NCBI RefSeq assembly: GCF_001280425.1
Contig: NZ_LIUF01000004.1
Span: 124,001-188,000, forward strand
Source of the DNA: Haloarcula rubripromontorii
GTDB lineage: Archaea > Halobacteriota > Halobacteria > Halobacteriales > Haloarculaceae
Direction: 5' to 3'
Length of the DNA stretch: 64,000 nucleotides
Shown: positions 7,346 through 9,826 of the stretch, in pieces
Numbering within the stretch: the stretch's first letter is position 1
Layout of the letters: every line of letters begins with the position of its first letter
Made by a program: the position numbers and the translations under genes
The notes under the pieces: generated by a model
What the model was told of the DNA's origin: nothing
Database searches by the model: none
The model's input: the letters and a program-made list of their open reading frames with translations, nothing else

Positions 7346-8038
7346 TCAGCCGGAAGCGACTGGCTCGATGGCGTCGCGTCGGCCGTCGAGAACGTCGAAC
7401 CGCTCGCCACGGCGCTGTTCGAGCCAGCGCAGCAGGCGTTCGGCCCAGCGGAGTTTCTGGCGCTTTTCCGCGGTCACGGACGGGTCCTCGAAGTCCCAGC
7501 CGAGGAACACCAGCGAGGCAGCGCCGAAGTGGTCGGCGAGGAACGCGGCGCGGTCGCCGTCGGTGAAGCCGCCGTAGTTGCGGACCGGCGGGGCGGGTGT
7601 CGCCTGTGTCGTCGGTACAACGAACTCACTGTCGTAGGCCGGAATATGTGTCTCCAGTGCGGGGATGTTGTCGCCGTGGGCGTGGGCGACAACCGGCGTC
7701 CCGGCGGCAGTCAGTTCCCGCCCGGTATCGGCGTTCTTGTCGAGGTCCGTGACCATACAGTCGACGGCGACGCCTGCCGCCTGGAGACGGTCGGCGGCCG
7801 TGGACGCCGCGAGGACCACGTCGGCGTCGGCTGCACGGTCGGCCTCAGCTTCCAGTGACGGGCCGGCTCCGGCGATAGCTACCGATGCACCGTCGAGTCC
7901 GAGAGTCGTCGGGTCGTATGTGCTATCGTCGCCGAGCAGTTCGACGAAGCGTTCACAGGCGCGCTCGTCGCCGTCACGAGGGTAGCCGAAGTCATCGAGG
8001 ATATCCTCGTACACTGGTTCCCAGGTGCGAAATTCCAT
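7346..8038 (-). CDS. mptE: 6-hydroxymethyl-7,8-dihydropterin pyrophosphokinase, MptE type
   Basis: A 230-residue protein of the archaeal MptE/DUF115 family, which replaces bacterial FolK by transferring pyrophosphate from ATP to 6-hydroxymethyl-dihydropterin for folate or methanopterin synthesis. Visible motifs are SVAIAGAGPSLE (nucleotide-binding glycine loop, about 49-60), VVLAASTAADRL, MVTDLDKN (metal-binding acidic pair) and LVFLGWDFED near the C-terminus. The length fits the family. The product would feed the dihydropteroate synthase domain of the FolC-FolP fusion at 58207. There is no obvious TATA element right before the ATG at 8038; a good one lies about 205 bp further up (8241-8250), with two strong hairpins between. 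Confidence 0.87.
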   Translation of the reverse strand: MEFRTWEPVYEDILDDFGYPRDGDERACERFVELLGDDSTYDPTTLGLDGASVAIAGAGPSLEAEADRAADADVVLAASTAADRLQAAGVAVDCMVTDLDKNADTGRELTAAGTPVVAHAHGDNIPALETHIPAYDSEFVVPTTQATPAPPVRNYGGFTDGDRAAFLADHFGAASLVFLGWDFEDPSVTAEKRQKLRWAERLLRWLEQRRGERFDVLDGRRDAIEPVASG

Positions 8039-8114
8039 CTCTCGTCAGACACTACGCAGTGGCCGTGTTTCTGTCTTGTTTCCCGTCCAGCCACATTGCA
8101 CTACGCTGCCACTG

Positions 8115-8219
8115 ACCCGGAGCGGTGCTGTCGCTCCCGGGTTCGTGGCCAGATAAACCGAGTTGAGCCGAAATGGCACGTCCGTGTACCCCTACCCGGG
8201 TGCCCTTTCGGCTTTCACT
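8115..8219 (-). ncRNA. Candidate structured leader or small RNA upstream of mptE
   Basis: On the minus strand, downstream of a TATA-like element at 8241-8250, there are two strong hairpins. The first has arms 8166-8173 and 8206-8213 (AGCCGAAA with TTTCGGCT) continued inward by 8175-8179 and 8200-8204 (GGCAC/GTGCC). The second has arms 8115-8124 and 8132-8142 (ACCCGG(G)AGCG with CGCTCCGGGT, 7-base loop). A transcript starting near 8219 would contain both before reaching mptE at 8038. It could be a long structured 5' leader, unusual in haloarchaea, or a separate two-hairpin RNA. I could not match it to SRP RNA, RNase P RNA or a complete H/ACA guide. The rest of this 327-bp gap holds nothing I recognise. 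Confidence 0.4.
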
Positions 8220-8240
8220 CCTTTCTTTCGAGGCCTCCGG

Positions 8241-8250
8241 TATAAGTTTT
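8241..8250 (-). promoter_or_regulatory. TATA-like element driving the structured RNA/mptE leader
   Basis: The minus strand reads AAAACTTATA here. A start point about 26 bp downstream falls near 8219, just before the first hairpin. No comparable element lies 25-30 bp before the mptE ATG. Confidence 0.4.
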
Positions 8251-8365
8251 CTCTTACCGTCAGACACGAATGGCGGGCCTCACGGGCGGCGATGACTAGT
8301 CCTCTCCGTAGCTACGCCAGCAGTCCGCGACAGCCTCAAGACGGGGCAGTCCTTACGAGCGACAA

Positions 8366-9826
8366 ATGGTCCCGGGACTGTCAGTAAATGCGAACGACGG
8401 TGCAGTTCCGGATTCGCTGGTGATCGTCTCGAACCGCGAGCCGTATAGCCACGAGCGGACCGACGACGGCGAGATACGGGTCCAGTCCGCCGCGGGTGGC
8501 TTGACGAGCGCGCTCGACCCGGTGATGCAGTCACGGGGTGGCACCTGGGTCGCCTGGGGCAGCGGCGACGCCGATATGGACGTGGCGACAAACGGCGTCG
8601 TCGAAGTCCCGCCGTCGGACCCGGCCTACGACCTGAAACGCGTCCCGCTCTCCGACGAGGCGGTCCAGGGCTACTACTACGGCTACGCCAACCAGGTGCT
8701 CTGGCCGCTCTGTCACGAGGACACGGGCCGGATGTGGGCCGAGCCAGCCTACTGGGAGCAGTACCGCGCCGTCAACGGGCAGTTCGCCGAGGCCGTCGAT
8801 GCGGTCGCTGACGTGGGCCAGCCGGTCTGGTTCCAGGACTATCATCTGGGGCTCGCTCCCAGACTGCTCCGAGAGAGACGGCCGGAGGCGATGCTGTTGC
8901 AGTTCTGGCACATCCCATGGCCCGCGCCGTCGGTGTTCCGGCACTGTCCCCACAGCGACGCGCTTCTCGACGGACTGCTGGCGTGTGACGTCATCGGGTT
9001 TCACACGGCAGGGTACGCCGAGCAGTTCCTGCACTGCGTCGACAGCGCGTTTTCCGCGGCGACCATCGACACGGACGCCGGGACAGTCACCCGGAACGAC
9101 GAGCGGACGCGAGTCGTCGCGAACCCGCTGGGTATCGATGTCGAGGGAGTTCGGGACCGAGCACGAACTGCCGACGTGGGCAGTATCCGTGATACCGTGC
9201 TGGGCGGCAGTCGCTCGGACACGTCAATCCGCCTCGCGCTCGGCGTCGAACGCCTCGACTACTCGAAGGGCATTCCCGAGCGGATCGAGGCGCTGGCGCA
9301 TCTGTGGGACCGGCGGCCGGACCTGCGAGGGGAGTTCACGTACGTCCAGAAGGCGAGTCGAACGCGGGAGGGGATTGCCGCCTACCGCCGGTATCGAGCG
9401 GACGTCGTCGATGCCGTCGAACGCGTCAACGACCGCTTCGGGACCGACGACTGGCAGCCCATCGTCTACACCGAAGCCACCCTCGACAACGAGACGCTGG
9501 CCGGGCTGTACCGGGCTGCCGAAGTCATGGTAGTGACGCCGCACCGCGACGGGATGAATCTCGTCGCCCACGAGTATCCGGTCGCCTGTGTCGATGGTGA
9601 CGGCGCACTCGTACTGAGTGAGCTGGCCGGTGCGGCGACCCATCTCGACGGCGCGCTGACAGTCAATCCGCACGATATCGAGGCGATCGCGGACACCATC
9701 GAGCGGGCGCTGAAACTGGAGAAATCGGACAGAGCTGACCGGCTGGCGCGCCTGCAGCAAAGCGCCGAGGCGCTCGACAGTTCGCAGTGGGTCGCCAGAC
9801 AGTTCAGCCCCGGACAGTCACCGTAA
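8366..9826 (+). CDS. otsA: Alpha,alpha-trehalose-phosphate synthase (GT20)
   Basis: The 486-residue protein has the GT20/OtsA landmarks in order: LVIVSNREPY at about 18-27, AAGGLTSALDPVM (donor loop), HIPWPAPSVFRHCP, VIGFHTAGYAEQF, GVERLDYSKGIPERIEAL and RDGMNLVAHEY near 393. It makes trehalose-6-phosphate from a nucleotide-activated glucose and glucose-6-phosphate in the cytoplasm. Trehalose is a compatible solute in several haloarchaea. The phosphatase partner (OtsB) is not adjacent and no OtsB-like domain is fused. Members of this fold can also make glucosylglycerol-phosphate; the motifs favour trehalose. The first 15 residues are not conserved-looking, so the exact start is less certain. 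Confidence 0.92.
   Translation: MVPGLSVNANDGAVPDSLVIVSNREPYSHERTDDGEIRVQSAAGGLTSALDPVMQSRGGTWVAWGSGDADMDVATNGVVEVPPSDPAYDLKRVPLSDEAVQGYYYGYANQVLWPLCHEDTGRMWAEPAYWEQYRAVNGQFAEAVDAVADVGQPVWFQDYHLGLAPRLLRERRPEAMLLQFWHIPWPAPSVFRHCPHSDALLDGLLACDVIGFHTAGYAEQFLHCVDSAFSAATIDTDAGTVTRNDERTRVVANPLGIDVEGVRDRARTADVGSIRDTVLGGSRSDTSIRLALGVERLDYSKGIPERIEALAHLWDRRPDLRGEFTYVQKASRTREGIAAYRRYRADVVDAVERVNDRFGTDDWQPIVYTEATLDNETLAGLYRAAEVMVVTPHRDGMNLVAHEYPVACVDGDGALVLSELAGAATHLDGALTVNPHDIEAIADTIERALKLEKSDRADRLARLQQSAEALDSSQWVARQFSPGQSP

Follow-up and report, generated by a model that had tools for sequence, protein, structure and literature searches.

A conserved structured leader upstream of mptE in haloarchaea and its probable pairing with the start of the S-layer glycoprotein message

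Introduction

Tetrahydrofolate riboswitches are structured leaders of folate-pathway genes, and FasX-type sRNAs pair with the extreme 5' end of their target mRNA. A further relevant case is that of the cyanobacterial sRNAs Yfr1 and Yfr2, which are described as nearly universal in cyanobacteria, with conserved motifs nearly complementary to another conserved RNA (PMC6778093). Among the haloarchaea, intergenic sRNAs of Haloferax such as sRNA132 are presented in PMC6560208 as regulatory RNAs acting on mRNA. Babski et al. 2016 (PMC4983044) found 72% leaderless transcripts in Haloferax and judged control by structured leaders not typical of haloarchaea.

We have analysed a window of 64,000 nucleotides (G000:C4:124001-188000) from a Haloarcula-type genome, in which a first-pass annotation had proposed a structured long leader or a two-hairpin sRNA upstream of the pterin gene mptE. 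On the basis of genome comparison, we consider it probable that the mptE leader starts with a stem-loop whose loop GGGUAGGGGUAC pairs in trans with NUACCCCUACCC, the first nucleotides of the S-layer glycoprotein message. Our literature search (S-layer, sRNA, riboswitch, conserved RNA in archaea) found no description of this element or of the S-layer link; subscription journals and supplements lay largely outside the search, and earlier transcript reports are possible.

Results

The interval between mptE and a trehalose-phosphate-synthase-like gene (Glyco_transf_20), which starts at 8366 on the plus strand, is 327 bp long and contains the leader feature (Table 1). A repeat or mobile element was rejected, as a search of the same genome with this intergenic region gave a single match over the full length, and the rest were short and weak.

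Table 1. Features of the mptE locus, in window positions
Feature	Position	Strand	Remarks
mptE	7346-8038	minus	Pfam MptE-like, 2.1e-16; 6-hydroxymethylpterin diphosphokinase-like; its mRNA would carry the element
Second (distal) hairpin	8115-8142	minus	confined to the long-leader Haloarcula clade, 14 loci
AGCGACAGC motif	8127-8135	minus	immediately precedes ATG in most short-leader Haloarcula loci
A/T-containing tail CGGUUUAUC	8152-8160	minus	just 3' of the stem; read by eye
Conserved RNA element (two-tiered hairpin)	8163-8218	minus	P1a (UGR/YCA), 2-nt bulge, P1b (GCCG..), G.A mismatch or small internal loop, P2, apical loop
Apical loop GGGUAGGGGUAC	8186-8197	minus	nearly invariant; complementary to the S-layer glycoprotein mRNA 5' end (G000:C5:151170-151181)
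BRE/TATA promoter TAAGAGAAAACTTATACC of the element	8239-8256	minus	kept in 30 loci of the genus; small changes across genera

The TATA box that had been noticed far upstream of mptE was recovered as the BRE/TATA promoter of the element, about 200 bp upstream of the gene. In 70 listed loci, for which CTTAT was required within a 40-nt stretch, the CTTAT of this promoter lies 49-51 nt before the loop, so that transcription is predicted to begin close to the element's first base. In the window, the start predicted at about 8218 makes the leader about 180 nt long, and the two-tiered hairpin forms its outermost 5' part. In the 30 Haloarcula loci that were read, the element immediately precedes mptE, and the leader measures 180-195 nt in 14 and 92-95 nt, from element start to mptE start, in 16.

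When the minus strand of 8039-8225 was folded, it reached -80.3 kcal/mol (z = -4.3), and none of 200 shuffles was as stable. The plus strand of the same region folds about equally well (z = -4.5), and therefore the folding energy gives no strand, which was instead settled by comparison. Across all 15 pairs of 94 distinct homologues, read on the mptE strand, G-U cells exceeded A-C cells by 58 to 22, and by 53 to 9 when two poorly aligned pairs were set aside. Within the full 180-nt leader, the loop is predicted to be just 45% unpaired. We also considered by eye whether CGGGU of the loop might form a pseudoknot with the 3' tail, which reads A-C-Y-C-G in Haloarcula and ACACGG in Natrialba types; this looked good in Haloarcula and failed in other lineages, so that it is not claimed. 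In Halorubrum types (L177-L205), UACC directly after the stem may pair with the GGUA in the loop. Such a pseudoknot might compete and would depend on the lineage.

The element is conserved across the haloarchaeal class. It was matched in all 32 genomes of the genus, blastn located it in 302 of 391 class genomes (66 of 86 genera), and a covariance model (R1) raised this to 347 of 391 at E<=0.1. With a broader model (R2), 115 of 126 haloarchaeal genomes gave a match at E<=0.01; mptE is present in all 126, and in every one of the 115 element-bearing genomes the element stands directly upstream of mptE on the same strand, at a distance of -7 to 220 nt (median 50). A sample of 196 genomes from the phylum yielded 31 matches, all from the haloarchaeal class.

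The stem also covaries. In 98 aligned sequences (94 distinct), an alignment fitted to the covariance model, which favours the modelled structure, 94.3% of cells are paired and 12 of 15 pairs show two-sided changes; none of 500 shuffles reached the observed values, and slid controls dropped to 27-60%. When RNAalifold was given free choice of structure on that alignment, it returned 10 pairs, every one with compensatory changes. Absence of covariation would have spoken against an RNA, and the first hairpin instead showed strong compensatory changes. The distal hairpin also exists, as the first-pass annotation had it, and is limited to its clade: 8 of its 10 pairs each persist in 13 or more of the 14 loci, mostly via G-U, and the remaining two in just 1 and 4 of the 14. 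Of the two hairpins proposed, the first alone is conserved beyond the clade. Considering the fixed upstream promoter, the class-wide conservation, the covariation and the constant place before mptE, the comparison strongly supports the earlier view of a structured long leader.

It might be argued that the element is a stand-alone sRNA gene merely upstream of mptE, which would then use an internal leaderless promoter (TTTATC). Such a TTTATC does lie about 31 nt before the ATG in short-leader Haloarcula loci, and stand-alone relatives of the element exist. However, the distance of TTTATC/TTATTG is kept to the element and not to the ATG, from which it stands about 115 nt away in the window, and element and mptE occur together in 115 of 115 genomes. 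The tail CGGUUUAUC likewise holds, by eye, a fixed distance to the element and not to the start codon. We regard the stand-alone gene as unlikely, and a leaderless internal mptE promoter is itself unlikely.

The genes are usually arranged as folP - element - mptE: among 71 named loci, 59 bear the element, and 50 of these have folP upstream on the same strand; a folP-like gene also lies upstream of mptE on the same strand in 9 of the 11 element-less genomes (of 126). In the ten measurable element-less loci, the stop codon of the folP-side ORF ranges from 54 nt ahead of the mptE start to 4 nt inside the gene, indicating that there is no room for the element. A search for the 12-mer of the loop found it in 77 of 87 genomes, and it was absent in 8 of the 9 element-less genomes of that set (G033, G051, G074, G080, G083, G097, G101, G103, G107).

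The S-layer glycoprotein mRNA has the perfect complement of the loop, GUACCCCUACCC, at its predicted 5' end, and the complementarity extends over 10-12 bp. Out of 60 12-mer sites that were fetched away from mptE, 25 are the reverse complement GTACCCCTACCC and stand 83-211 nt upstream of genes with the haloarchaeal surface-glycoprotein signal. All five downstream proteins that were scanned match TIGR04207 halo_sig_pep. One of these proteins, from a Haloferax-like genome, matches the model for ArtA-dependent S-layer glycoproteins at 5e-75, under the full-length cut-off because the N-terminal part alone was scanned. Other sites fall inside ORFs that resemble aminoacyl-tRNA synthetases by sequence, and we take them as chance. 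At L313(+) (G108:C1:817432), a TATA-spaced GTACCCCTACCC stands 51 nt before a gltX-like (glutamyl-tRNA synthetase) gene, which is either a lineage-specific second target or chance.

Where the AAAG of the TATA region could be recognised, it starts 30-36 nt ahead of the site with few exceptions, so that the site lies at or next to the predicted transcription start. Across 87 genomes, a pattern of TATA and ten-base core (TTTA, 20-32 nt, ACCCCTACCC) gave 50 occurrences and the reversed control gave 3. Of these 50 cores, 46, in 40 genomes, are followed on the same strand by a TIGR04207 match at a distance of 40-300 nt. The window's own genome has such a core before each of its two tandem S-layer genes (G000:C5:151142 and 154484). 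Natrialba-type genomes have the site variant [ATC]TACCCCTACCC, and Halorubrum types have weaker variants. The duplex of loop and site from the window's own genome is calculated at -25.4 kcal/mol. Across 18 S-layer UTRs, the predicted unpaired fraction is 0.64 for the site and 0.38 for the remaining 12-mers of each UTR, with the order reversed in two of them (G054, G078). In many S-layer UTRs, ATGGTGRCAGTA..GAGTA is common downstream of the site; it may represent an upstream reading frame or a second structural element.

These sites bear on the proposal that the leader senses pterin or folate, as had been suggested. A metabolite-sensing riboswitch in the mptE leader, with the S-layer complementarity as a secondary matter, would agree with what was found in cis, where a conserved structured leader precedes a metabolic gene, here one for pterins, in most of the class. 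However, Rfam 15, which includes the folate/THF riboswitches, gave 0 matches in the window; the Rfam search that had been called for returned over 7990-8370, at E<=10, solely BtsR1 (13.5 bits, cut-off 66) and RAGATH-32 (12.2 bits, cut-off 41.8), both chance matches far below their cut-offs. Moreover, the most conserved part of the element is the apical loop, which complementarity in trans explains, separate copies occur away from pterin genes, and none of six extra model matches was seen upstream of a folate gene. The riboswitch-only reading was dropped once the reverse complement of the loop had been found at S-layer 5' ends; pterin or folate sensing gained no support, and we give it hardly any weight. 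As for a box H/ACA guide RNA, Haloarcula has no ACA directly after the stem, where CUCAACUCGG stands (by eye). CACA was seen by eye in Natrialba-type sequences.

We then consider how element and site are distributed relative to each other. By the criterion applied, the site is present in 67 of 75 element-bearing genomes examined. Because 24 of the 70 genomes in the pairing set had been chosen for an exact site, the co-absence test was restricted to the others: the site occurs in 43 of 51 unselected element-bearing genomes and in 0 of 7 element-less ones (Fisher 2e-5), each of which has one to three S-layer-type genes. No accepted site was obtained in 8 of the 75 (G041, G089, G124, G039, G377, G068, G100, G140), for which some S-layer paralogues were covered; G140 has a near-match by eye with one core pair off and was counted as lacking the site. 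Three of the sites (G037, G042, G140) were judged by eye.

Loop and site also change together. Variant-loop genomes were sought on purpose for this comparison. A U4-to-C change of the loop in two genera is matched by A-to-G in the target (G201, G315, G218, G285); U10-to-C is likewise matched by A-to-G (G285, G125), the congeners of G125 being canonical on both sides; and G3-to-A is matched by C-to-U (G047). With one representative per genus, or per distinct loop within a genus, 36 loop/site pairs were compared. Watson-Crick pairing holds at 350 of the 360 core positions, where permutation gives 339.7 on average and 0 of 20000 permutations reach 350. The ten core pairs hold 20 changes: 7 are compensatory, 11 affect the target alone and leave a G-U pair, and 2 break the pair (G047, G119). 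Extended complementarity that is conserved and coevolution of seed with target, two marks of a trans-acting base-pairing RNA, were both found.

A coevolving regulator would also fit this concerted change. In this case, the 12-mer would be a DNA element for a regulator shared by both promoters and would stand in a hairpin by chance, and both sites are indeed near predicted transcription starts. Against this, the stem covariation needs an RNA, and the sites differ in place and have opposite orientation relative to the two starts. A DNA site should also vary alike at both loci, whereas 11 of the 12 changes confined to the target are G-U compatible and the loop alone changed once. Such an asymmetry is allowed by RNA pairing and would not be favoured by a shared DNA motif, which speaks against such a regulator, with the caveat that most possible target-side transitions are G-U compatible. 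We consider a shared DNA regulator highly improbable.

Hairpins with the same loop also occur apart from mptE. The six extra R2 matches in the 126 genomes are weak, and each is a hairpin with the exact 12-mer as its loop. Four belong to a single genus (L229(-) near 1535, L230(-) near 1501, L231(+) near 1550 and L232(+) near 1493) and have by eye their own TATA-like sequence ACACAAGAYTTTTA and a U5 tract TGGACATTTTTCG after the stem; an opposite-strand ORF faces them, and no obvious same-strand gene follows. These separate hairpins are candidate trans-acting copies, as judged from their sequence. The two-hairpin sRNA of the first-pass annotation thus survives in part: the conserved unit is one hairpin and not two, and hairpins with the same loop stand as separate candidate sRNAs in some lineages.

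Other non-mptE loop sites (L273(+), L274(-), L290-L296, L307(+), L316(-), L317(-)) have TATA-like sequences upstream (CACAAAGTATATTT, GACAAGACATTTACC and similar), and several are clear hairpins (a 9-bp stem in L273) followed by T-rich tails. A second element copy, L233(-) near 1495, has an mptE-like promoter CACGGGAAAACTTATGCC and lies upstream of a small membrane-protein-like ORF, possibly in a mobile or proviral region.

Discussion

The pairing of the mptE leader with the S-layer message is indicated by comparative evidence, in which a covarying hairpin, a 5'-end site, co-occurrence, co-absence and compensatory change all point to a contact between loop and site. The 5' ends of both the mptE leader and the S-layer mRNA are predictions from TATA spacing. 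We infer transcription of both RNAs from these starts, formation of the duplex in cells, and control of the S-layer message rather than of mptE.

In terms of mechanism, the mptE leader would be, or would release, a trans-acting RNA: the hairpin could act while still in the leader, or on a short RNA that arises from it by termination or cleavage. The loop of the hairpin would then cover the 5' end of the S-layer mRNA, and this would most likely alter the stability of this mRNA against 5'-end decay or its translation. The tail of the element at the mptE locus shows no obvious terminator, and a free sRNA from this locus is therefore no more than a possibility.

The direction of control could also be the reverse, with the abundant S-layer mRNA acting on the mptE leader in an mRNA-to-mRNA switch that links folate synthesis to growth or envelope synthesis. 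An effect in cis on mptE would explain why the element precedes this gene in 115 of 115 genomes, and csg, which has the highest transcript level named in the Haloferax data of PMC10448506, could titrate a leader. On the other hand, hairpins with the same loop, their own promoters and U-tracts stand separately with no obvious downstream gene, and the spacing between element and mptE varies between -7 and 220 nt. Judging by the separate hairpins, the S-layer message is the likelier of the two to be controlled; the constant place before mptE leaves room for the reverse direction, which we consider rather unlikely.

More broadly, we tentatively propose, with somewhat more doubt than confidence, a class-wide archaeal mRNA-to-mRNA circuit. 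In this circuit, the pterin/one-carbon leader and the S-layer 5' terminus would be coevolved kissing partners with lineage-specific duplicate sRNAs, and envelope synthesis would be tied to folate metabolism. If this is true, a class-wide leader with a coevolving S-layer partner would be an archaeal regulatory RNA of the first rank, against the view that haloarchaea make little use of structured leaders. The pairing with the leader could also explain the long 5' UTR that S-layer genes keep.

In summary, the putative contact of the mptE leader has likenesses in several known systems. Like the tetrahydrofolate riboswitches, the element is a structured leader of a folate-pathway gene; unlike them, it has no match in Rfam. 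With FasX-type sRNAs it shares a short antisense contact at the very 5' end of the mRNA of a secreted or surface protein, whereas it is archaeal, would make the contact by a hairpin loop, lies in the leader of a metabolic gene and is class-wide, and no homology is claimed. With Yfr1/Yfr2, a conserved motif complementary or nearly so to another conserved RNA is common to both cases; both partners are sRNAs there, and one partner is the 5' end of the S-layer mRNA here. Finally, sRNA132-like RNAs resemble the element as haloarchaeal regulatory RNA that would act on mRNA, and to these the element adds class-wide conservation and a target that covaries in trans.
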